This document shows, one piece after another, positions 9,328 through 22,692 of a stretch of DNA of 24,167 nt. The DNA is from a virus. The stretch is from the IMG/VR virus record IMGVR_UViG_3300025889_000927, positions 1-24,167 of that record; one strand, written 5' to 3'. Both the position numbers and the translations under genes were made by a program. Under the pieces are notes generated by a model. The model ran no database searches. It had not been told where the DNA came from and was given only the letters and a program-made list of their open reading frames with translations. How positions within the stretch are numbered: position 1 is the stretch's first letter; every line of letters begins with the position of its first letter.

Positions 9328-9735
9328 ATGCCATTAATTCAAGGAGTACGAAGAATAAATCCTTTAGATTCTAACAAAAATGTTAGGATAGGGGTAGCGT
9401 TTCCTTTGGATGACGTTAATATTTTTAAAGGAACTCAAACAGTAAAAGAACAAGTAAAAAGCAACTTAATAAACTTATTACTTACAGAAGCGGGTGAAAG
9501 AGTTAACGAACCTAACTTTGGTGTAGGTCTAAAAAAATTATTATTTGAACAAGGTATAAATACAGATGAACTAAATGAAAGAATTAATAATCAAATAGTT
9601 TTTTATATCCCTGAAATATCTTTAATAGATACATCTGTAAAATTTGAAGATGACGAACATAAATTATTTATAACAATATCATATAGATTTAATTTAGATG
9701 GAACTAATGATGCTATACAATTAAACTTTAACTAA
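9328..9735 (+). CDS. 25: Baseplate wedge protein gp25 (W/gp25 family)
   Basis: A 135-aa protein matching the gp25/P2 gpW family in size (T4 gp25 is about 132 aa) and pattern: an N-terminal strand region with V-R-I-G-V-A-F-P-L, then V-K-S-N-L-I-N-L-L-L-T-E-A-G-E-R-V-N-E-P-N-F-G at about 46-64, the most conserved part, then L-K-K-L-L-F-E. The C-terminal half has alternating strands. In T4, gp25 joins the first sheath ring to the baseplate wedge core and helps trigger contraction. The stop overlaps the start of gp6 (TAATG), which is the typical gp25-gp6 or W-J order in contractile systems. The gene symbol follows T4 naming by family, not proven orthology. Confidence 0.9.
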   Translation: MPLIQGVRRINPLDSNKNVRIGVAFPLDDVNIFKGTQTVKEQVKSNLINLLLTEAGERVNEPNFGVGLKKLLFEQGINTDELNERINNQIVFYIPEISLIDTSVKFEDDEHKLFITISYRFNLDGTNDAIQLNFN

Positions 9736-11627
9736 TGGCTTACAATAAAGTATCAAATAAAACACAAGATAAAGACGTTAAATACCTAAATAAGGATTAT
9801 AATTCTTTTAAAAACCAGTTAATAGAATTTGCTGAAGTATATTTTCCAAATAATTTTAACGATTTTAGTGAAGGTAACCCAGGCATGATGTTTTTAGAAA
9901 TGGCATCATATGTTGGTGATGTTTTATCTTTTTATACAGATACACAATTAAGAGAATCATTTTTAACACTTGCACAAGAAAAAGAAAATTTATATAATTT
10001 AGCTTATGCTATGGGTTATAAACCCAAAGTAACAACAGCAGCATCAGTTGATCTAGATTTATTTCAGTTAGTACCCTCTATTTTAGTAAGTGGAGATTAT
10101 AAACCCGATTTTGATTATGCATTAGATATAGAAGCTAACTCTATTTTTGAATCAACCGAGGGTCCTAAATTTTATACAGATAGAAAAGTAAGTTTTGGTT
10201 TTTCATCTTCATTTGACCCTACAACAGTAAGTATATATCAATTTGATGGTTCAAATAATCCTGAATATTACTTACTAAAAAAATCAGTCAAAACTATATC
10301 GGGAGAAACTAAAACACAAACATTTTCTGTTGGTGCTGCTGAAAGGTTTAAAACATTAACATTATTTGATACAAATGTTATTTCTATAGAATCAATTGTA
10401 GACTCTGAAGGTAATAATTGGACTGAAGTACCTTATTTAGCCCAAGATACTGTTTTTGAAGAAATAGAAAATACAGCAGCTAATGATCCTGAATTATATG
10501 GATTTAATCAACAATCACCTTACTTATTAAAAGTAAAAAGAACCCCACGTAGATTTATAACTAGATTTAAAGCTAACAATCAACTTGAAATTCAATTTGG
10601 ATCCGGGGTAAGTGATAAAGCTGATGAAGATATTATCCCAAATCCAGACAATATAGGTTTGGGAATTAAAGATGGAAGAAGTAAATTAGATGTAGCTTAT
10701 GACCCATCAAACTTTTTATACACTAAAGCATACGGACAAGTACCAGCAAACACAACATTAACTGTAACATACGTTACAGGTGGCGGTTTAGAAGCTAATG
10801 TAAATTCAAATACTATTACTAAAATAGGAACACTAACTACTACTAATAAACCCAATTTAAATGGGGCTATGTTAAATTTTATAAAAAGCTCAGTATCATC
10901 TACAAATCCAGAAGCCGCAAAAGGTGGAGGAGCTGGTGATTCAGTAGAAGAAATACGACAAAATACAATAGCTAATTTTGGTGCACAGCAAAGAACAGTA
11001 ACTAAAGATGATTATTTAGTTAGAACATTATCAATGCCAGCTCGTTTTGGTAGAATAGCTAAAGCTTATATCACCCAAGATGATCAAATTTCACCTTTAA
11101 CAACAGAACCAAATCGTATTCCTAATCCTTTAGCTTTAAATTTATATACATTAGGATATGATTCAAATAAAAATTTAACAACTTTAAATACAGCTACTAA
11201 GACAAATCTTTCTACATACTTAGAGCAATATAGAATGCTAACTGATTCTATTAATATTAAAAATGCCTTTGTAATTAATTTTTCTCTTGATTTTGAAATC
11301 ACTGCATTTAAAAATTATAATAATGAAGAAGTTATATTAGAATGTATATCAGAACTTCAAGATTATTTTAATGTAGATAAATGGCAAGTAAATCAACCTA
11401 TTATCATTTCAGAAATTGAAAACCTAATAGGGGGAGTTAAAGGAGTACAAACAGTAGAAAAAATAGAATTAATCAATAAAAGTGGAACAGCATTAGGATA
11501 TTCACAATACAAATATGATTTTATACAAGCAACTAAAAATAGAGTAGTATATCCTTCATTAGATCCAAGTATTTTTGAGTTAAAATACCCAAACACAGAT
11601 ATTAAAGGAAGAGTAACAACATACTAA
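9735..11627 (+). CDS. 6: Baseplate wedge protein gp6 (J-like)
   Basis: A 630-aa protein, close to T4 gp6 (660 aa). Residues about 14-100 hold the N-terminal helical domain: K-Y-L-N-K-D-Y-N-S-F-K, D-F-S-E-G-N-P-G-M-M-F-L-E-M-A-S-Y-V-G-D-V-L-S-F-Y-T, the D-x2-R-E-S-F-L-x2-A segment and A-Y-x-M-G-Y-K-P. A central region has I-Q-F-G-S-G at about 288. Residues about 400-445 give the second J-type signature, with S-V-E-E-I-R-Q-N-T, R-T-V-T-K-D-D-Y and P-A-R-F-G-R-I-A-K-A-Y. In T4 two gp6 copies join gp7 in the wedge and form the inner baseplate ring; P2 gpJ is the counterpart. It starts inside the gp25 stop and is followed by virion genes. Confidence 0.9.
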   Translation: MAYNKVSNKTQDKDVKYLNKDYNSFKNQLIEFAEVYFPNNFNDFSEGNPGMMFLEMASYVGDVLSFYTDTQLRESFLTLAQEKENLYNLAYAMGYKPKVTTAASVDLDLFQLVPSILVSGDYKPDFDYALDIEANSIFESTEGPKFYTDRKVSFGFSSSFDPTTVSIYQFDGSNNPEYYLLKKSVKTISGETKTQTFSVGAAERFKTLTLFDTNVISIESIVDSEGNNWTEVPYLAQDTVFEEIENTAANDPELYGFNQQSPYLLKVKRTPRRFITRFKANNQLEIQFGSGVSDKADEDIIPNPDNIGLGIKDGRSKLDVAYDPSNFLYTKAYGQVPANTTLTVTYVTGGGLEANVNSNTITKIGTLTTTNKPNLNGAMLNFIKSSVSSTNPEAAKGGGAGDSVEEIRQNTIANFGAQQRTVTKDDYLVRTLSMPARFGRIAKAYITQDDQISPLTTEPNRIPNPLALNLYTLGYDSNKNLTTLNTATKTNLSTYLEQYRMLTDSINIKNAFVINFSLDFEITAFKNYNNEEVILECISELQDYFNVDKWQVNQPIIISEIENLIGGVKGVQTVEKIELINKSGTALGYSQYKYDFIQATKNRVVYPSLDPSIFELKYPNTDIKGRVTTY

Positions 11628-12774: not shown

Positions 12775-13562
12775 TGGCTCAAGAAAATGTAAAAATAAAT
12801 AAAAAGGTTTATGGAGCTAAATCAGCTAATGATGTAATTGATCGTTCTTTTTCTGAATTATTAAAATCAAAAGATCCAATTAATGTTGAAAAACTTTTTC
12901 AACTATATAATGAATTATTTTATGATATACCAAAAGAAGGAGACCAATCACATACTACTTTAATAGTCCAAAGCACAGATTACGTTCAAGATTTTATTGA
13001 TCCAAAAGATGAACAAATAGATAATCTTTTAGATAGAATTATAGAATTAGAAGAACAACTAGCCCAAGTTAATGATACTAAAGAACACCCATTTTTTAGA
13101 AATGGAACATTTTTACGTACTCCTAATACTACTATTTTCTTTATGCAAGAAGGAAAAGCAAGACCTATAAGAACAGAATCTCTTTATAGAACTATAGCTA
13201 AAGCTCAAGGATTAGATCCAGATGCTACTCCTAAACCATATACAGAAGTAGATGCCTCTATACCAGAGGAAATAGGAAGAGGAAAAACCATAAGATCCCT
13301 TTCAGATTTAAATGATTTTGAAGAAATAGTTCCTACACAACAAACAAACTTTATAGAAACTAGGACTGCTTTACAAAATGTAAGAGTAAATGCAGGCCAA
13401 TTAGCAGAATTAAAGGCTATAATTGAAGATAAAGAAGTAGCAAGAGATATAGGACGAATAAACCTTGCAAGTGCTGAAGGACAAGATCTTATTAGAAATG
13501 CCCCCGTAAATACTAGTAATATACAACAAGCATCACCATCACAAAATAGATCAGTAAGATAA
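12774..13562 (+). CDS. Virion/baseplate-associated protein with coiled coil (262 aa)
   Basis: Not assigned to a family. Residues 1-65 are helical (F-S-E-L-L-K-S-K-D-P-I-N-V-E-K-L-F-x-L-Y-N-E-L-F-Y-D-I-P). Residues about 76-100 form a clear acidic coiled coil (I-D-N-L-L-D-R-I-I-E-L-E-E-Q-L-A). Residues about 105-150 look like a small beta hairpin region (F-F-R-N-G-T-F-L-R-T, then T-T-I-F-F-M-Q-E-G-K-A-R-P-I). The remainder (150-262) is Glu/Gln/Asn-rich and of low complexity, ending in N-R-S-V-R. It overlaps both neighbours by single TAATG junctions, so it should be translated together with the large I/gp7-like protein. It might be an attachment or bridging component of the wedge. Confidence 0.65.
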   Translation: MAQENVKINKKVYGAKSANDVIDRSFSELLKSKDPINVEKLFQLYNELFYDIPKEGDQSHTTLIVQSTDYVQDFIDPKDEQIDNLLDRIIELEEQLAQVNDTKEHPFFRNGTFLRTPNTTIFFMQEGKARPIRTESLYRTIAKAQGLDPDATPKPYTEVDASIPEEIGRGKTIRSLSDLNDFEEIVPTQQTNFIETRTALQNVRVNAGQLAELKAIIEDKEVARDIGRINLASAEGQDLIRNAPVNTSNIQQASPSQNRSVR

Positions 13563-16500
13563 TGGCAGAAATAACCAACATATCAACAGAAAAAAAACTG
13601 ATTTTAAATGATCAAGTTACATCAAGAGATATATCAAGAAAATTTGGTAAACCAGAAGATTATATAGAATTACATATCTATAATACAAGTAATCAAAAAT
13701 TATTTTCCGAACAAAATTTCACTCAATATACTATTTCATCTGATTCAACGGATCTCCAATCTTTAACTTCTGAGATTAATATGGATCCTGTAGAAGTTTT
13801 AAGATCGTATGGTTACACTACAGGTAAATATAGATTAGCGTTTAATATTCAAAGAAGAAAAATATTCAATGTTGCATCTCCTTCTTTTACAATAACTGAA
13901 ATATCTTCAACTAAAAGAGAGATAAGAGCGATAGCTAATAATATTAATAATCAAACACTTGATACTGCTGTAAGAAGTTTTATAGCAGAAATTGAAAGTT
14001 CTTTGTACTTTAAAGATTTTGTTTTAAATTTTGGGGAAAATATAAATCCTTTGGGGGTAAATATATTATTAAACTCTAATCCTTCTAAACATGAGATATT
14101 AATAAAATTACTAAACCCACTGCCTTCATCAATTTCTGTAAGAGATACTTTCTCAATAGCAGAAGAAATATCAGACCCAATATCACTCACAGTAGATCTA
14201 GGGGAAGCAGAAATAGTAGACGACAGCACACCCTTACAGGGCCCTAACTTTAAAATCGATATTAGATTAAATAATAGTATTCCTTCTGCTTACAAAAATT
14301 ATAATGAAGTATTAGAATATAATTTAACTTCCTCATATCAAAATCTTTTAAATCAACTTGAAAATAGAGAAGTACCCGAAATACAATATGATTATATAAG
14401 ACCAGTTTCATCAAGCACTGAAAGTACTGATGTAGCTTATCATTTTGAAAATTTTGTACACTTTGGTAGTGCTGTAGAACGATTAAAAAATTTCGCATAT
14501 AAGGTAGAATTAATAGAACTATATGATTCCCAAATATCAGATATAAATTCTATTACTGGTGATACTTCAGCTTCTTCTTTTGTACTAACAAATAAAGAAG
14601 ATATAAATAATAAAAAAGAAAATCTTATAAAAGGTCTTGATGGGTATGAGCAATTTTTATATTTTACGTCAGGTAGCAATTTTACTTGGCCTAAATCAAA
14701 TACATCATACCCCTATACATTATATTCTGTAACATCCTCCCAAGCTAAAACATGGTTAGGAGATGAAAAATCAGCTTTTCCTAATTATGGTGGTCAATTA
14801 TTATCTGCTTCTTTATATGATAAACAAAACGAGTATGCTTTGATTCGTTTAGTTCCTAATCATATTGTAGATAACCCAGACAACGATTTTTATCAAACAT
14901 TTGTTCATATGATTGGGCATCATTTTGATACTGTTTGGACACATATAAAGGCAATCACAGACGTACAAGATACACACCATACTAAAGGTATTTCAAAAGA
15001 CTTAGTTTATTTCCAACTTAAAAGTTTAGGAATAGAAACATTCGATCAATTTGAAAATTCCAATCTAATAGAATATATTTTAGGTCACGGAACAGGTAGT
15101 AGTACATTTTATGATGCTCCTTCTACCCAAACATTAGTAACGGCTTCAAATGCAGGTTCAATTCCAAAACAAGATATATCTAAAGAAATTTGGAAACGTT
15201 TATACCATAATGCACCTTATCTTTTAAAAACTAAAGGAACAGAAAGAGGATTAAGAGCTCTTATGAGTTGTTATGGTGTACCATCAACTATTTTAAATGT
15301 AAAAGAATATGGTGGACCCGTTAAAGACCAAACAGGATATAAAACATTCACATATGAAAAATCAGGATTAGCTTTAAAAGGAGACTCAGGCAAATTTGGA
15401 CATTTTATAAAAACAGATTGGTCATCTTCCTTAACTAATACTTATTTTACTGTTGGTCAACAAGAAAAGAAAACAATTGAATTTAGAGCTAAACCTGTAA
15501 GATTAGAAGCTAATCAACATTTACTTACATTATCAGGTTCTACAACTGGAGTTGGAACTCATTCCCCCGCTACTGACCATTCCCTAATATTACAACCATA
15601 CAGCGGAAACGATATATCTTCTTCTGGAGATTCAACACAATATGGAAGAATAGCATTACACGTAGGAGGAGCAGATGTAGTAGCAACTTCTTATTTCCCT
15701 ATCTATAATGGTGATTTTTGGAATATATTTATAAATGCCCAAAAAGATGGAACAGATGCCTCAGTAACGTTTGGTGCTTATCAAGCTAATTTTAATAAAA
15801 ACATATCTTCTTATACAACCTCCTCAACTACAGCAAACTATAATTTTTGTTGGGGGAATGAAGAAAAAGGAGCCAAATATGCTTATTTTGGGAGTATTCC
15901 CTCAAACACTAATGCAAACTTTACTAATATAGCTGGTTTAAGGTATTCAGGTTCACTTCAAGAAATCAGATATTATTTTGGAGAAAATTTGAGTGATAAT
16001 ACCCTTACTAAACACGCATTAGAACCCTTTATGTATGCTGGAAATGCAGTTTCTTCTTCATATGAAAATTTAGTTTTAAGATTGCCATTAGGATCAAACG
16101 ATAAACAAGATAGTTCAAGTTTCCATCCTAATATAGATGTAGAATTTTTAGGAAATATATCAAGTAACATGACAACCCAACAGTGGGAAGAAGTAGTAGA
16201 AAACCACTACCACCCAACTCCCGACACTGTTGGTATTTCAATGACTAGTGAAAAAGTAAGAATCGACACTGGTACTATAGATGATGATATTTTATCTGTT
16301 AATATAAGATCAGAAGAATCAACATTAGATAGACAGCCACAAGATTTTGAAGATTTGGGTGTGTTCTTTTCTCCAACAACTGAAATAAACGAAGACATAG
16401 TTTATCAGTTAGGTGCCTTTAGATTAGACGATTATATTGGTTCACCTTTACCTTCAGCCCAAACAGCTTCAAACTATGAAGACTTAAAAACCATAAAAGA

Positions 16501-17506
16501 TATATACTTTAAAAGAGTAAATAAAAGATACAATTATTGGGATTATATAAAAACAATCCAATATATAGATCATACATTATTTAAAATAGTTGAACAATTT
16601 GTTCCATTCAAGGCAAATACAAAAACAGGTTTATTAATTGAACCACATTATTTAGAAAGAAGTAAATTTGCAAGAGAATTACCTGTAGTTGATTATGGCA
16701 CTACAATGACACAAGGATCTTATCAAACAATTGATTTTCAAATTGATCCTGAAAGAGCATTCACTTTATCTGATTCTTCTGTTGTTACTACAAACAATTT
16801 ATCACCCACCACAGGTAGTGATGGTAAAAGATTAGAAAAAGGAACCAATACAACTATTGACGTAAGTGGTTATATATTAGATGAAGTTCAAAATATAGCT
16901 CAGGTACCAATTCGCCCTTTTCCAACTAGTGAATATGGTGGTGGAAATTTATTTGGAAATGGAACATTTAGCGGAATTCCTGATAATACTGACCCTCTTA
17001 CTATAGATCATACTCCTACAGTTGCTGTAGCATATACAGCTGGTGGTACACCAACATTAAATTTAAAAAATGAACAACTTCAAATAACTTCAAGTGGTGC
17101 CAATATGGGGATACAATATAATGTACCCACAGTAGAAGGAAGAGAATACAGATTAACAATAACTATAGGTGGTGATAATCCCTCAAACATATTTTTAACA
17201 AATAATACAGGTATTAGTTTATCTACGCAGTCGGGTGCTGGTAGTGGTTTAACAGGAAATAAAACAATAACATTTACTGCAGAATCGGGTACTTTAACTA
17301 GAGTTTTTCTTAGAGCAAATAATAATACTGCTGGTCAAACTAATTTTGATAATATTGTAGTAAAAGAAAGAATTCCATTAGATAATGGAAAACCAATAGG
17401 ATATGTAGCAAGAAAATCAAACGAACTACTAGGAAACGCTACTAAAGGAAGATTATCACGTAGGTATTACCGCAGTTTAGATAAAGGAAAAGAATTAGAC
17501 TTTTAA
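13562..17506 (+). CDS. Large baseplate protein: gpI/gp7-like centre with LamG-like and carbohydrate-binding-like modules (1314 aa)
   Basis: The largest gene here. Residues 1-440 are unassigned, mainly beta with Ser/Asn-rich loops. Residues about 444-580 include H-H-F-D-T-V-W-T-H-I-K-A-I, W-K-R-L-Y-H-N-A-P-Y-L-L-K-T-K-G-T-E-R-G and a C-Y-G-V-P segment; the K-G-T followed by a helix and a short Gly-containing turn resembles the P2 gpI tail protein. In contractile systems I follows J as gp7 follows gp6, and this gene is downstream of gp6, so I infer the wedge gp7/I role. Residues about 625-825 look like a LamG/concanavalin-type sandwich, ending in Y-S-G-S-L-Q-E-I-R-Y-Y-F. Residues about 1128-1270 resemble a CBM4/9-type module, from N-L-F-G-N-G-T-F to F-D-N-I-V-V-K. 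Adhesive modules on such a protein suggest binding of host surface glycans. Family-level support is weak for all three modules. Confidence 0.75.
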   Translation: MAEITNISTEKKLILNDQVTSRDISRKFGKPEDYIELHIYNTSNQKLFSEQNFTQYTISSDSTDLQSLTSEINMDPVEVLRSYGYTTGKYRLAFNIQRRKIFNVASPSFTITEISSTKREIRAIANNINNQTLDTAVRSFIAEIESSLYFKDFVLNFGENINPLGVNILLNSNPSKHEILIKLLNPLPSSISVRDTFSIAEEISDPISLTVDLGEAEIVDDSTPLQGPNFKIDIRLNNSIPSAYKNYNEVLEYNLTSSYQNLLNQLENREVPEIQYDYIRPVSSSTESTDVAYHFENFVHFGSAVERLKNFAYKVELIELYDSQISDINSITGDTSASSFVLTNKEDINNKKENLIKGLDGYEQFLYFTSGSNFTWPKSNTSYPYTLYSVTSSQAKTWLGDEKSAFPNYGGQLLSASLYDKQNEYALIRLVPNHIVDNPDNDFYQTFVHMIGHHFDTVWTHIKAITDVQDTHHTKGISKDLVYFQLKSLGIETFDQFENSNLIEYILGHGTGSSTFYDAPSTQTLVTASNAGSIPKQDISKEIWKRLYHNAPYLLKTKGTERGLRALMSCYGVPSTILNVKEYGGPVKDQTGYKTFTYEKSGLALKGDSGKFGHFIKTDWSSSLTNTYFTVGQQEKKTIEFRAKPVRLEANQHLLTLSGSTTGVGTHSPATDHSLILQPYSGNDISSSGDSTQYGRIALHVGGADVVATSYFPIYNGDFWNIFINAQKDGTDASVTFGAYQANFNKNISSYTTSSTTANYNFCWGNEEKGAKYAYFGSIPSNTNANFTNIAGLRYSGSLQEIRYYFGENLSDNTLTKHALEPFMYAGNAVSSSYENLVLRLPLGSNDKQDSSSFHPNIDVEFLGNISSNMTTQQWEEVVENHYHPTPDTVGISMTSEKVRIDTGTIDDDILSVNIRSEESTLDRQPQDFEDLGVFFSPTTEINEDIVYQLGAFRLDDYIGSPLPSAQTASNYEDLKTIKDIYFKRVNKRYNYWDYIKTIQYIDHTLFKIVEQFVPFKANTKTGLLIEPHYLERSKFARELPVVDYGTTMTQGSYQTIDFQIDPERAFTLSDSSVVTTNNLSPTTGSDGKRLEKGTNTTIDVSGYILDEVQNIAQVPIRPFPTSEYGGGNLFGNGTFSGIPDNTDPLTIDHTPTVAVAYTAGGTPTLNLKNEQLQITSSGANMGIQYNVPTVEGREYRLTITIGGDNPSNIFLTNNTGISLSTQSGAGSGLTGNKTITFTAESGTLTRVFLRANNNTAGQTNFDNIVVKERIPLDNGKPIGYVARKSNELLGNATKGRLSRRYYRSLDKGKELDF

Positions 17507-17509
17507 AAT

Positions 17510-18910
17510 ATGGCATTCACACAAAGTTTTGACGTAGAATTTGATGACGCTCTTTTAGATCTTGATGGATGGAAAAATCCCAGATATGAAGGAACTAAAC
17601 TAACAGGGGTTCAAATTAACACTTATACCGCAGGAGATATCACTTATGGTAAAAATCCTGTTATAGAAAGAAAAACCACAGCCCTGTATATAGGTAATAC
17701 TTTAATAGGAGCTGAAAATGAAGACGAACAATATGTTTTTATTAAAGGACATTCTTATGTTAATATAAATAAAATACTAATAGTTGATCCTGAAAGTGAC
17801 GAAGTAACTATCATAGATTCCAAAGCAGAAGATTTTACCCCCTTTCAACAATTTGTAACTAATGATTTACCAACAGGTGCATCTTTTAGTTTTAGATTAT
17901 TAGATAGTTCAATTCAAAATTCTTTAGATGAAACCTATTTTGTAAAAATGAATAAAGGATGGTTATTAACATCTTTTGATTCGGGTCCTTACCTTAATGA
18001 TTTTGATAATCCTGAAGTAATAAATCCTCTATTTTTAGCTAAAGGTAATCAAGATACGGTTACAGCTGGTGGTAATGCAGCGGGAAAATTTTGGTTTCAA
18101 ACATCATACGATCCAGATACTGGCGGTAATAATGATGTATATCCTAACTATATTAGTGCAAGTATAGTAAGAAATAAATTTGTAGATCAATATTATAGTG
18201 TTAATAGACCAACAACCTTTGGTGGATACCCCACAGGTGATTTTAATAGGGGAATTGTATCAATGTCAAGGTTTTTATTATCAGAATCAACAGATTTTCT
18301 AGCAAATAAAGGTAGACATTTAGGGGGTAATAGCAATACAGAAATGCATTTAACTTTATTCCAAGGTTCATATGATTTTGCTCCTGGTTTTAATGATGAA
18401 AGAAGTATAAGTACTTTTGAAGTAGATAGAAATAATAACACAAAAGGAATCACATACAGAGCAACAGGAGCAGATGAATACCCAGTTGGTATGTTGTTTT
18501 TAAAAGGCAAATCATATAATGCAATTGATAAACAGGGTGAAGATCCTAGATTTTTACCAACTTTTTCTTCTTCTTATGACACAGTTATACACTATAGAAG
18601 AACTAGTTTAGGTAATGTAATTGCCTATTATAATGCACCTATAGACATATATGTTAGAGGAAATATAGTACCTACAGGAAGTTACTCAGGATCTTTTGGC
18701 TATCAAGTTTCATTCTTAGATAAAGCACCCACAATTATCTCAAATATAGATAAAGAAGTTCAACTTTACGATGGTATTGGAGAAAGAGGATTTGTATTAA
18801 TTCCCAACCAACTAGATCAAAGAGTCAAAGACAACGTAGAATATTACTTAGAAAAAGCAGGATTAATAGACAAAACAACAAGAAATAAAGCTCCAAAAAG
18901 AGGAAGATAA
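17510..18910 (+). CDS. Virion structural protein, unassigned (466 aa)
   Basis: No family recognised. The sequence is beta-rich throughout, with few helices, no Cys and many Asn, Asp, Ser, Thr, Gly and aromatic residues, as in tail-fibre and baseplate-peripheral proteins. The first 30 residues (S-F-D-V-E-F-D-D-A-L-L-D-L-D-G-W-K-N-P-R-Y-E-G) may be a docking region. Residues about 395-466 change to a helical, charged end (V-K-D-N-V-E-Y-Y-L-E-K-A-G-L-I) with the basic tail A-P-K-R-G-R. It starts 3 bases after the 1314-aa protein gene and is the last gene before candidate late promoter site 3, so it closes the baseplate group. A wedge-periphery or fibre-connector role is likely from position only. 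Confidence 0.7.
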   Translation: MAFTQSFDVEFDDALLDLDGWKNPRYEGTKLTGVQINTYTAGDITYGKNPVIERKTTALYIGNTLIGAENEDEQYVFIKGHSYVNINKILIVDPESDEVTIIDSKAEDFTPFQQFVTNDLPTGASFSFRLLDSSIQNSLDETYFVKMNKGWLLTSFDSGPYLNDFDNPEVINPLFLAKGNQDTVTAGGNAAGKFWFQTSYDPDTGGNNDVYPNYISASIVRNKFVDQYYSVNRPTTFGGYPTGDFNRGIVSMSRFLLSESTDFLANKGRHLGGNSNTEMHLTLFQGSYDFAPGFNDERSISTFEVDRNNNTKGITYRATGADEYPVGMLFLKGKSYNAIDKQGEDPRFLPTFSSSYDTVIHYRRTSLGNVIAYYNAPIDIYVRGNIVPTGSYSGSFGYQVSFLDKAPTIISNIDKEVQLYDGIGERGFVLIPNQLDQRVKDNVEYYLEKAGLIDKTTRNKAPKRGR

Positions 18911-18928
18911 CATTTTTTAAAAAAATAT

Positions 18929-18944
18929 ATATTTATAACAAAAC
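18929..18944 (+). promoter_or_regulatory. Candidate late promoter, site 3 (ATATTTATAACAAAAC)
   Basis: Third copy of the recurring sequence, preceded by a T6A7 run and two further TA steps. It lies in the 43-base gap between the 466-aa and 234-aa virion genes, 25 bases before the ATG at 18954, and is followed by an unstructured CAACAACA leader. No -35-like TTTG lies 19-21 bases upstream. Confidence 0.5.
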
Positions 18945-18953
18945 ACAACAACA

Positions 18954-19658
18954 ATGGGATACTTAGATAATAGCTCAATAACAGTAGACGCGATACTAAC
19001 AAAAAGAGGTCGTGAATTACTATCAAGAAATGATGGTTCTTTTAGAATCACACAATTTGCATTAGGGGATGATGAAGTTGATTATACATTATTTAATGTA
19101 AATCATCCTAATGGATCACAATATTCAGGAGAAGCAATTGAAAACATGCCTTTAATTGAAGCTATTCCTGATGAAAGTAATATCATGATCCATAAGTTAA
19201 TTACTCTAAAAAGAGGAACATCTAAATTACCTGTTGTAACAGCTAATGTATCTAAAATTACTTTAACTATTGGTGCTACTACAAATGTTTTACCTACTAC
19301 ACTTAATTTTGAAGGGGTTACAAACCAAGCAGAACCAAGTGGATATACAGCAACTATTGCTGATAGACGTTTATTGACTTCTTTTAGAGGAACAGGTTTA
19401 GCCGCAGATAGAGCAGAACAACAATCAACTATCAGACCATATACTTCAACAGCTGTAAGTGAAACAGTCATTGGTAATGGTTTTAGTTTAACAGCTATCA
19501 ATAGTACTTCACTATTTGGAACAAATACAAAATTATTAACAACTTTAACTCTTGAAGGAAGAGACACAGGAGCTAGAGTAACTATTCCAGTTGAAATTTC
19601 TAAAGAAGTAATAGCTCAAAGAGCAACTCAAGGAGAAACTGGTATTACATTAAGATAA
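18954..19658 (+). CDS. Virion structural protein with conserved N-terminal region (234 aa)
   Basis: Residues 1-50 read M-G-Y-L-D-N-S-S-I-T-V-D-A-I-L-T-K-R-G-R-E-L-L, then F-R-I-T-Q-F-A-L-G-D-D-E-V-D-Y-T-L-F. I recall this opening as a common feature of structural proteins in marine T4-like phages: a helix with K-R-G-R-E-L followed by a strand and D-D-E-x-D-Y. Its function has not been settled to my knowledge. The remainder is beta-rich and Thr/Ile/Val-dominated, compatible with an elongated fibre or baseplate component. It opens the group of three proteins ending at 22692 and follows candidate late promoter site 3. The CAACAACA leader has no Shine-Dalgarno. Confidence 0.75.
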   Translation: MGYLDNSSITVDAILTKRGRELLSRNDGSFRITQFALGDDEVDYTLFNVNHPNGSQYSGEAIENMPLIEAIPDESNIMIHKLITLKRGTSKLPVVTANVSKITLTIGATTNVLPTTLNFEGVTNQAEPSGYTATIADRRLLTSFRGTGLAADRAEQQSTIRPYTSTAVSETVIGNGFSLTAINSTSLFGTNTKLLTTLTLEGRDTGARVTIPVEISKEVIAQRATQGETGITLR

Positions 19659-19671
19659 AAAATAAAAACCA

Positions 19672-20691
19672 ATGGCAGGACTAATTAGATTCGATCAAGG
19701 AGATATAGTAAATGATGTACAAAAAGTCGTAACATCAACTTGGTCAGATAATACAAATAACTTACAGGTAGCATATACTTCATCTGCTCAAGCTATACTC
19801 ACAGATGCAACTAGCTCAGGTGCACATTATATAAATGTATACCACCTAGCTTCAACTCAAAGTGTACAATATTCTTTAGCATATGGTCATAAAGCAGGAT
19901 CTGGTTCATTAGATTTTACAAATGATGTAGGATCATATGGAAAAAGTCCTTCAGGAAACATCTACAGCCAATATCGTCAATTAGTATTTGGAGATGAAGC
20001 TTCAAATTTCACATTTAACGATTATACACCTGATGATGTTTATGTAATTAATGTAAATAGAGCTAGATATAAACATAATTTAAAACCGGGAACATTAGAC
20101 TTAAGATTATCGGGTTCTGATACTCTTGCAACCTTACACTTAACAGATGATAGTTTAACACAAACAGGATCATCAACTATAACAAATGTTGGTAGACAAT
20201 TCAATATTGTATCTGGTTCTTTAGGTGTTATGTCAGGTTCTAATTTAACCCAAGTCACAAATAGTGGTTCATATGGATTATTTTACCCAGACGCAGGTTT
20301 TATAGTATTAAATCCGGCAGCTATTGATCACTATGTTGATGGTTTGGTTCCAGGAACATCACAAAACACAGCTAATAATAACCACCAAAAATTATTTAAC
20401 CATATATCTGGAGGTGGGTATTTTATATTAGATAGTGAAGAAAAAGTTAGTTCACAATTTTACTTTGCAAGAGCTAAAAATGTAGAATTTAATTACACAA
20501 CCAATCCTTCATTTATAGATACTAATGGAAATGTAAATATTGATTCAATGATTGATAACCCAACAACTTATATTACAACTGTTGGTTTATATAATGATAG
20601 TGGAGACTTAGTTGCTGTTGCAAAATTAAGCCAACCTGTTACTAAAGACTTTACAAAAGAAGCACTTATTAGAGTAAAATTAGACTATTAA
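19672..20691 (+). CDS. Tail-fibre/baseplate-peripheral protein (339 aa) sharing C-terminal module with the next gene
   Basis: A beta-rich virion protein. Residues 1-120 contain W-S-D-N-T-N-N-L-Q-V-A-Y-T-S-S-A-Q and Y-S-Q-Y-R-Q-L-V-F-G-D; residues 120-230 are Ser/Thr/Gly-rich strands; residues about 210-225 (L-F-Y-P-D-A-G-F-I-V-L-N-P) precede a short helical stretch. Residues about 255-325 (F-Y-F-A-R-A-K-N-V-E-F-N-Y-T-T-N-P-S, then Y-I-T-T-V-G-L-Y-N-D-S-G-D-L-V-A-V-A-K-L-S-Q-P) match the C-terminus of the 662-aa protein in pattern and partly in residues, which suggests duplication. The shared end may be the part that docks both onto the same baseplate position. It starts 13 bases after the 234-aa gene. 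Confidence 0.75.
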   Translation: MAGLIRFDQGDIVNDVQKVVTSTWSDNTNNLQVAYTSSAQAILTDATSSGAHYINVYHLASTQSVQYSLAYGHKAGSGSLDFTNDVGSYGKSPSGNIYSQYRQLVFGDEASNFTFNDYTPDDVYVINVNRARYKHNLKPGTLDLRLSGSDTLATLHLTDDSLTQTGSSTITNVGRQFNIVSGSLGVMSGSNLTQVTNSGSYGLFYPDAGFIVLNPAAIDHYVDGLVPGTSQNTANNNHQKLFNHISGGGYFILDSEEKVSSQFYFARAKNVEFNYTTNPSFIDTNGNVNIDSMIDNPTTYITTVGLYNDSGDLVAVAKLSQPVTKDFTKEALIRVKLDY

Positions 20692-20703
20692 AATGTCATT
20701 TGA

Positions 20704-22692
20704 ATGTCTGTATACAAAAAATTCACAGCCCAAGACTATGCAATAGTCCCATTTAACGCTCATAAACAATATGACTTTACTTCTACCACAGCTGCTTCAA
20801 ATTCAGTAAATTATTATAGCGTTTCATGGACATCTGAATCTATAGATCTCCATACTAGTGGAAATATTAAATACAACCAATTAGATCATCTTTTTTACCG
20901 TAATTTTAAAAGGGACATTTCTAACAAATTTGGTAATACACACTATGTTTACCAAAAAAGAGTACTATATGAAAAAGCATATGTGTATTCTATTCCCGCA
21001 GGCTTATATGGCCACGAAATAAAACCAGGAACATTTTTTCTTTCATCAAGTTTAGGTCGTAATATTATTGACGATAGTAGAGGAAATTTAATAGTTAGTG
21101 GAACTAATGTAAATGATTATGTTACAGATTTTAGAACTAATGTTTTAAATATAGGACCTGTAAATGGTTTTAAAAGATATGATTTAAACACCCTAGATGG
21201 ATATGTTTCATTTAATGGGTATGAAAATAGTGTTTTTTATAGAGATGGTAAACCTAGAACAAATAGATTGTCTTCTTACTCTACTCCCGATTTTGGTGAT
21301 GAATTTGACGATAGTTACTTTTTTAATGTTATTAAATATAAAGATGTTAATTTTTCTAGAAAACCTTTAAGTCATGGTATATTCCCAGGAATTGATTTTA
21401 ATGGTTCTACTTCAGAAGTTAAAGTAGGCCACGATGATAAATTTAATTTTAACCCGGGAGATGATTTTACAATAACACTACAAGCTGAAGTTTTACATGA
21501 CCCAACAGACACCTCTTATCTAATATCTAAATCAACAACAAAAACAGTTGTTCCTACCCCTAACGAAGGAAAGTCAGGAAGATATTCTACTAGTGCAACT
21601 GGTTCTCTTCAAACTAAAGATACATTTTCAGAACCTCAATACCCATTTGAAATATATGCTACTGGGCAAGAATTATTTTTTAGAAGATCGGATGGAAATA
21701 TAACTACAACTATAAGTTCATCTTTTGAAACAGGTTCAATGCAACATATATCTTGTAGGGTTTCTTCTTCCCAAATGGAAATTTTTATAAATGGTGTAGG
21801 ATCTGGTATCTCAGGTTCAGATAATACAGTTGATCAAACACAAAACCAAGCTAATGTTTACATTGGTAATAAAGGTGGAACATCAAATTTCTTGTCTGGG
21901 TCTTTAAGTCAAATAAATATACATAATAGAGCATTAACCGATACACAAGTATTAAATCATTATAGTAGTAGTAATGGTTCTCCTTATATAGGTAATATAT
22001 TTTATCAAAATGGTTTTGTAGCATTAACACACCCAGCACATACTCCTATAAACATAGTAAATGTATTTGGTGCTACAACCATTATTGATCAAGTCAGTAT
22101 CACTTTCAACTCAGCTACATCTGTAACTTTTGCACCTCATCCTGATTTGGATAGAGCTGCTCCTATAGCCTTTCCTATAATAGCTGGAGCTACCTACCGT
22201 TTATCAGCATCACTTAGTGATTATTCAGGTGGTAATCATGTAGGTTTTACTAATCAAGGGGGAGTATCAAATTTAGCAAGAAGAACAAGTAATGGTGATA
22301 TAACTGAAGTTTTTGTAGCTAATGGAGATCCAATAAGAGTAGAAGCCGGAGGTAACACAGGAGGTACTTTAAGTGATATATCAATAGTTCCTATAATAGA
22401 TGATGAACAAATTAAATTCCAAGGTTCACATCTAATTTATGAAAACGAATACCAGTGTACAGTAGATGAACACGAATTTAATGCAACTACAAACATCTCT
22501 GCTCGAAAAATTAAATCAAATCAATCACAAGATATAGCAGATTTTGCAACAGGTTCACTTTTTAAACCTTATGTTACAACAATTGGTTTATATAATGAAG
22601 ATAATGAGTTATTAGTAGTAGGTAAACTAGGTCAACCTATTAGAACATCCAACGAAACAGACACTACTTTTATTGTTCGTTGGGATACATAA
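20704..22692 (+). CDS. Tail-fibre/adhesin-like virion protein with LamG and carbohydrate-binding-like insertions (662 aa)
   Basis: Residues 1-228 form the scaffold (S-I-P-A-G-L-Y-G-H-E-I-K-P-G-T-F, L-D-G-Y-V-S-F-N-G-Y). Residues about 229-420 are a LamG-type jelly roll: G-I-D-F-N-G-S-T-S-E-V-K-V, D-D-F-T-I-T-L, the M-Q-H-I-S-C-R-V strand, M-E-I-F-I-N-G-V-G, and the closing L-S-G-S-L-S-Q-I-N-I-H-N-R-A-L-T-D-T-Q-V. Residues 430-444 return to the scaffold (G-N-I-F-Y-Q-N-G-F-V-A-L-T-H-P). Residues about 445-565 look like a CBM4/9-type sandwich containing A-G-A-T-Y-R-L-S-A-S-L, similar to the module in the 1314-aa protein. Residues about 571-646 (Y-E-N-E-Y-Q-C-T-V, F-K-P-Y-V-T-T-I-G-L-Y-N) resume the scaffold and match the preceding protein. 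I infer host-glycan binding at the virion periphery. Confidence 0.78.
   Translation: MSVYKKFTAQDYAIVPFNAHKQYDFTSTTAASNSVNYYSVSWTSESIDLHTSGNIKYNQLDHLFYRNFKRDISNKFGNTHYVYQKRVLYEKAYVYSIPAGLYGHEIKPGTFFLSSSLGRNIIDDSRGNLIVSGTNVNDYVTDFRTNVLNIGPVNGFKRYDLNTLDGYVSFNGYENSVFYRDGKPRTNRLSSYSTPDFGDEFDDSYFFNVIKYKDVNFSRKPLSHGIFPGIDFNGSTSEVKVGHDDKFNFNPGDDFTITLQAEVLHDPTDTSYLISKSTTKTVVPTPNEGKSGRYSTSATGSLQTKDTFSEPQYPFEIYATGQELFFRRSDGNITTTISSSFETGSMQHISCRVSSSQMEIFINGVGSGISGSDNTVDQTQNQANVYIGNKGGTSNFLSGSLSQINIHNRALTDTQVLNHYSSSNGSPYIGNIFYQNGFVALTHPAHTPINIVNVFGATTIIDQVSITFNSATSVTFAPHPDLDRAAPIAFPIIAGATYRLSASLSDYSGGNHVGFTNQGGVSNLARRTSNGDITEVFVANGDPIRVEAGGNTGGTLSDISIVPIIDDEQIKFQGSHLIYENEYQCTVDEHEFNATTNISARKIKSNQSQDIADFATGSLFKPYVTTIGLYNEDNELLVVGKLGQPIRTSNETDTTFIVRWDT

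Follow-up and report, generated by a model that had tools for sequence, protein, structure and literature searches.

The 24,167-base IMG/VR virus record IMGVR_UViG_3300025889_000927, analysed here over its whole length (the window), holds a baseplate-type gene block in which two proteins, p1314 (1314 amino acids; positions 13562-17506) and p662 (662 amino acids; 20704-22692), carry domains resembling carbohydrate-binding modules (CBMs). We propose, with a probability of about 0.72, that these CBM-like domains are accessory adhesion modules on T4-like baseplate proteins, exchanged by recombination in conserved flanks. Both open reading frames (ORFs) are present as claimed in a preliminary description of this DNA, and they lie on the plus strand, as do the domains, insertion sites and paralogue p339 located below. 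Under our proposal, p1314 and p662 each comprise a conserved scaffold with one resident LamG-type lectin fold, and extra modules, putatively of β-sandwich type, are taken up where the scaffolds tolerate them: on either side of the p662 LamG domain, in two loops of that domain, towards the end of the LamG domain of p1314 and near the p1314 C-terminus. Recombination across conserved flanks would lead to gain, loss and replacement of modules; on a longer timescale, some module families have come to be shared by both proteins. The most likely job of the modules would be to give the phage additional, variable surfaces with which to bind polysaccharide on the host during adsorption.

The CBM-like modules of p662 (residues 447-567; 22042-22404) and p1314 (about residues 1119-1277; 16916-17392) are optional accessory modules, since the closest relatives lack both and the boundaries are clean and in frame. 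In the nearest relatives (L001/L028, L002 and L029; relatives are given by locus id), the alignment of p662 covers residues 1-444 or 1-446 and resumes at 570, and that of p1314 covers 1-1135 and resumes at 1280, with identities of 72-89%; best-segment identities to these relatives are 77-78% (L001/L028), 72% (L002) and 75% (L029). The corresponding DNA alignments lack both modules in frame, with no shared remnant. Among the close relatives, the p662 module is absent from L001-L006, and the p1314 module is absent with clean edges from L028, L029 and L006. Protein alignment places the p662 module exactly between '...GNIFYxxGFxxITHP' and 'LQFQGSHLIYEHEYQC...', and alignment with relatives and profile searches show the scaffold resuming at residues 568-662 (22405-22689). 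Homologues on the same scaffold without the module therefore exist, as for the optional CBM of the Vp4 Gp119 type. The earlier view of these regions as insertions into a conserved scaffold that resumes after each module in p662 is borne out: nearest relatives lack the CBM-like modules, and distant relatives lack LamG, their p662 scaffold rejoining at the same 'G-N-[IV]-[IF]-Y' segment. The objection that the preliminary description had raised against itself, that the scaffold of relatives might always contain these regions, falls with the existence of module-less relatives. Guanine-plus-cytosine content is slightly higher in the modules (0.365 in p662 and 0.325 in p1314) than in the scaffolds (0.29-0.31), a small difference that we did not use as evidence.

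Minimum change counts on scaffold-only trees show repeated gain or loss of modules at set sites. Using profiles of the module-free scaffolds, and after removing identical and contained ORFs, we detected inserts of at least 70 residues at recurrent sites in 35 of 102 p662-family proteins (including distant phages L068 and L075, where the 'insert' is a linker, and incomplete proteins L096 and L126) and in 27 of 94 p1314-family proteins (including 12 distant or giant-protein rows, namely L066, L068, L070, L072, L075, L076, L077 and L193-L197, and two fusions, L117 and L127). Several locus ids denote one contig (L010/L054, L016/L048, L018/L050, L019/L188/L201 and L001/L028/L151). The main sites of p662 are A, directly before LamG (21370-21384), B and C in two LamG loops (21484-21510 and 21712-21738), and D, directly after LamG, where the window carries its module. 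Those of p1314 are site 842, near the LamG end (about residues 858-865; 16133-16154), and the C-terminal site holding the window's module; other sites are rarer. Sites A, B, C and 842 are empty in the window, with A filled in L041, C filled by an F5/8-type-C-like module in L010, L055 and L071, and 842 filled in L010, L019, L055, L057, L058, L060, L061, L067, L117 and L127. The minimum number of changes on the p662 tree is 8 at site B (insert in 21 of 104 rows), 8 at D (13 of 104), 2 at C and 1 at A, and on the p1314 tree 6 at site 842 (10 of 90 rows) and 8 at the C-terminal site (11 of 90), gain not being distinguishable from loss in these parsimony counts. The trees exclude LamG and insert columns and are quick reconstructions with many open forks and meeting long branches; the p662 tree contains six p339-type paralogue rows, had one row left out by the program and shows L025 without a label, since its identity with L018 had removed it from the insert list. 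At site 842, the sister phages L010, L055 and L071 carry an F5/8-like module, a CBM-like module and no module, respectively.

The p662 site-D inserts of L007, L039, L043, L098, L126 and L136-L139 are large (260-566 amino acids) and form one repeat-like family on scattered scaffold branches; beside them, weak WD40 or β-propeller matches were noted for at least one member of the module set. In each of L193-L197, the first ORF, truncated where the contig or locus begins, is a p1314 homologue of about 3,900 amino acids, with 2,682-3,116 amino acids inserted at scaffold position about 630, directly before LamG. A sub-threshold PA14 match was the only one found in L193.

A recent in-place module replacement at p662 site B is plain from L016 and L018, because L018 resembles L016 outside the module and L015 inside it; the exchange was by recombination in the conserved LamG sequence on either side. 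The two loci are 92.1% identical over 11.1 kb and 93.4% over a further 1.8 kb, about 12.8 kb altogether, and their alignment breaks only at the site-B module. Within the p662 gene, L018 is 93% identical to L016 outside the module and 69% inside, against 78% and 90%, respectively, for L015. Informative sites at which L018 sides with L016 or L015 number 12:85 inside the module and 314:58 outside (Fisher's test, 5e-41, counting linked sites as independent). The L018 variant recurs in L025 (100% over 1722 bases) and the L016 variant in L017 (99.2%), both under other IMG record numbers, which may include re-assemblies of one sample. Site B has no insert in the sister phages L044 and L051. In several pairs drawn from L015, L016, L018, L115 and L182, the site-B modules have not evolved in parallel with their scaffolds; L115 and L182, for example, are 60% identical in their modules and 53% in their scaffolds. 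Further swaps at this site possibly took place besides the documented one.

A comparison of all 84 inserts recovered three module families present in both p662 and p1314 across phages, with best E values of 5e-16, 3e-13 and 1.6e-29. The first unites the p662 module of the window with the C-terminal module of the L019 p1314 protein (about 40% identity, 5e-16), so that the best relative of the window's p662 module lies in a p1314 homologue; a further copy forms part of the site-D insert in the p662 protein of L019. The second, F5/8-type-C-like (Pfam E values from 6e-7 to 1e-4; those given with bit scores fall short of the curated cut-off), occupies p662 site C in L010, L055 and L071 and p1314 site 842 in L010, which thus carries it in both proteins of one phage. 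The third links p662 site B of L027 to the giant p1314 homologues of L193-L197, the best match having an E value of 1.6e-29. A fourth family, comprising the window's p1314 module and the site-842 modules of L055, L060 and L061 (1e-10 to 1e-12), has also moved between sites, since it is C-terminal in the window and at site 842 in those three. Outside the p662 and p1314 families, the inserts matched no proteins except the p1314-p466 fusions L117 (3420-8615) and L127 (3234-8513), in which p1314 is joined to the next gene, p466, in ORFs of 1732 and 1760 amino acids. An hhalign matrix of 13 insert families gave a single pair above 25% probability, a trivial overlap. Significant module similarity between p662 and p1314 homologues is therefore found, for the window's p662 module via L019. 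Exchange between the two proteins would be old or indirect, because nucleotide similarity links none of their modules and protein identity is at most about 40%.

The two CBM-like modules of the window are probably distant relatives at most, with marginal direct similarity. They align at 26.6% identity over 79 amino acids (E 0.012 in an 8-sequence set), 26 of 1000 shuffles score as high in a direct comparison of the two, and hhalign gave probabilities of 59%, 24% and 18% in three set-ups. In the same 8-sequence set, the L019 p1314 module bridges the pair, with E values of 3e-20 to the p662 module and 3e-4 to the p1314 module. Two of the motifs said to be common to both, G-x-x-Y-R-L and [LF]-T-N, do occur in each; the third, D-x-I-x-V, is not at equivalent places, standing at 1263 in p1314 and 542 in p662, where the closing strand instead reads DISIV at 558. 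Searches of viral contigs found no relatives with the p662 module alone (12 stretches, 0 relatives), 2 with module alignment A2 (47 stretches, both relatives on the L060/L061 contigs) and 1 with module alignment A3 (114 stretches, on the L019 contig), and nothing further. Module profiles gave no convincing match among PDB sequences; a 6e-7 match to 6xi1 was set aside as a repeat protein with several weak stretches, none below 0.26 alone. Among annotated phages, the p662 module had no match and the p1314 module one weak match (39% over 61% of the module, E 0.02), which falls in L205 (1975-5622), a protein of Synechococcus phage RN05-S annotated as LamG-like jellyroll. Foldseek rows for the p1314 model, given without query ranges, include CBM16 2zew (E 3.5e-3) and CBA120 TSP4 5w6h (E 6e-3).

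From their gene order, we infer that p1314 and p662 belong to the baseplate region of a marine phage of T4-like, contractile-tail type. The block includes a gene for a gp6-like baseplate wedge protein (9735-11627; phrog_219 in PHROGs, E 1e-20), followed by p381, p262, p1314, p466, p234, p339 and p662, and homologues of p1314 and p662 occur in conserved order in Flavobacterium phage immuto. PHROGs returned no function for p1314 or p662, nor for their scaffold homologues in immuto. A flavobacterial host is plausible because of these homologues and of a p1314 relative (38% identity) on a Winogradskyella contig from a metagenome-assembled genome (MAG). Gene order, fold type and the precedents of phage Vp4 and the lactococcal 936 phages together suggest that the modules bind host polysaccharide, and that their exchange would alter adsorption or host range. 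In Bacillus myophages, the CBM-bearing baseplate wedge protein Gp119 of Vp4 is described as binding host cells and the CBM-free Gp177 of Deep-Blue as not doing so, and in siphophages of the 936 group CBMs occur in the evolved Dit, a major tail protein extension and the neck passage structure, two of them shown to bind (PMC11406892 and PMC6669499, respectively).

Several points weigh against our proposal, besides the linkage between the sites counted in Fisher's test. The documented replacement concerns site B, where the window has no module, and the module pairs linking p662 to p1314 are at most about 40% identical. Neither module of the window matches CBM_4_9 (PF02018) or any other Pfam family (the p1314 module gave 0 families at E 1, and the whole proteins no CBM_4_9 at E 0.1). 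In model confidence, as the predicted local distance difference test (pLDDT), the p662 module scores so low (mostly 30-52) that its model is unusable, and the ten-stranded model of the p1314 module reaches modest values (mostly 30-66); the fold matches of both protein models cover almost only the LamG domains and hardly the CBM-like modules. The preliminary description was right that the modules are inserted and exchangeable but went too far in making them glycan-binding and in assigning them to CBM4/9, which we rejected as their family because the Pfam cut-off is not reached; the sole CBM_4_9 match among 31 module sequences, in L031, has an E value of 0.02 and 15.7 bits against a cut-off of 25.9.

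This lack of a carbohydrate-binding family above the Pfam cut-off would also suit modules that are structural rather than glycan-binding, serving as spacers, stabilisers or trimer or wedge contacts, as would the many relatives that do without (67 of 102 for p662 and 67 of 94 for p1314). Phage tails commonly bear Ig-like and other decorative folds for which no ligand is known. However, frequent turnover and the presence of very different modules at one site fit a changing ligand better, one family is F5/8-type-C-like, and the Vp4 wedge protein with CBM binds host cells whereas its CBM-free homologue does not. We consider a purely structural role unlikely, though far from negligible, and favour accessory adhesion modules. 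More tentatively, and with rather more doubt than belief, a shared module pool might serve both baseplate proteins, with LamG as a docking frame whose loops and edges act as standard recombination slots; if true, this would amount to a dedicated, evolvable two-protein adhesion platform and not ordinary swapping of tail-fibre tips.

The LamG domains behave differently from the accessory modules. In p662, the domain (about residues 227-425; 21382-21978) passes the curated Pfam cut-off for Laminin_G_3 (PF13385; 48.7 against 27.6 bits), and its model is confident (10-residue mean pLDDT 81-96 at residues 211-440, except 281-310). Fold matches are lectin-type jelly-rolls (Z 21-23 over 190-214 residues), headed by matches of 11-23% identity to the lectin-like domains found in clostridial neurotoxin complexes; the GH43 arabinanase AbnA scores comparably (Z 21.1), and the neurotoxin-complex matches reflect the common jelly-roll fold and are no sign of a toxin. 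In p1314, which matched no Pfam family at E 0.1 and misses the Laminin_G_3/LamG cut-off, the model contains a LamG/pentraxin-type sandwich at about residues 600-884 (15359-16213; pLDDT mostly 63-93), wider than the 625-825 first assigned. Its jelly-roll fold is confirmed against LamG/pentraxin structures: the top match is 4dqa, a putative carbohydrate-binding protein of Bacteroides ovatus (Z 16.7, 3.4 Å, 202 residues), and further matches include phage CBA120 tailspike 2 (Z 14.8) and LG domains of laminin, neurexin and agrin (12.8-14.3). The p662 domain is thus a member of the Laminin_G_3/ConA-like lectins, and the p1314 domain has their fold without a Pfam match.

Each LamG domain is an old insertion into an immuto-type scaffold and now a fixed resident rather than a recent cassette, since 96 of 102 p662 relatives and 86 of 94 p1314 relatives have residues in its columns. 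The other six p662 relatives are distant phages without LamG; the eight p1314 rows without a full domain comprise the distant L068, L070, L072 and L075, the partial L077 and the truncated contigs L033, L062 and L180, and immuto-type p1314 homologues lack it. The two LamG domains share a fold and have no detectable sequence similarity: 157 of 500 shuffles score as high, and neither family profile finds the other, contrary to the idea of shared LamG sequence. That a single LamG-CBM cassette was copied between p1314 and p662 would account for both fold types occurring in the same order and for the motif pieces in common. However, the LamG domains are fixed in each protein and dissimilar in sequence, the CBM-like modules are gained and lost independently of them, about 235 scaffold residues separate the two in p1314, and L055, L060 and L061 carry the p1314 module family at a different site, 842. 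We therefore rejected the pair as a unit, and regard such copying as very improbable; of the exchangeable cassettes first suggested, the module families common to both proteins and one natural replacement remain, only the accessory modules being mobile. An origin of the observed gains, losses and swaps in chimeric assembly of metagenomes is scarcely credible, even though all close relatives are metagenome contigs and contig loci are often represented more than once, given that both site-B variants recur in other IMG records, that dozens of contigs show cleanly bounded inserts in the reading frame, and that module-free homologues exist in isolates and MAG contigs.

Module exchange is known in kind for phages, domain mosaicism in tail and baseplate proteins being an established general phenomenon, and the present case is ordinary in kind but unusually clear. 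Smug et al. 2023 surveyed annotated phages (PMC10684548); in the available extracts, fragments common to otherwise unrelated proteins are reported most strongly for receptor-binding and also for baseplate proteins, and neither this lineage nor its site-by-site swaps appear. Vp4 Gp119 and Deep-Blue Gp177 are similar to our case in that a myophage baseplate protein carries CBM folds missing from a homologue, but they differ in their Gram-positive hosts, A511-type baseplate and want of a resident LamG with loop insertions; the excerpted text (PMC11406892) records neither modules common to two scaffold proteins nor natural in-place replacement. The 936 phages likewise bear related (BppA-like) CBM modules on several virion proteins as internal insertions or extensions, but are siphophages of Gram-positives with other scaffolds and module folds (PMC6669499). 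A search of the open-access literature for LamG with phage baseplates or inserted wedge domains, subscription journals being outside its scope, returned no paper on this lineage. Near-identical or sister phages differing in one adhesion-type module (L016 and L018; L010, L055 and L071) offer a clean natural experiment. They come from a marine group that is uncultured and has relatives infecting Flavobacterium or located in a Winogradskyella MAG. They pinpoint sites where baseplate proteins tolerate whole domains, and tie the evolution of host adhesion to baseplate proteins beyond tail fibres alone.

Downstream of p662 lie a GIY-YIG-like and then a primase-like gene, both also found 3′ of the p662 homologue of Microcystis phage Mel-JY01, from whose annotation these names are taken. 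Directly upstream of p662 (20704-22692), p339 (19672-20691) has neither LamG nor a CBM-like module and is paralogous to the C-terminal scaffold of p662 (36% identity over 72 amino acids, 2e-6; 7.8e-9 with the S662 profile). The adjacency of these paralogues and their common C-terminal scaffold suggest an old tandem duplication.

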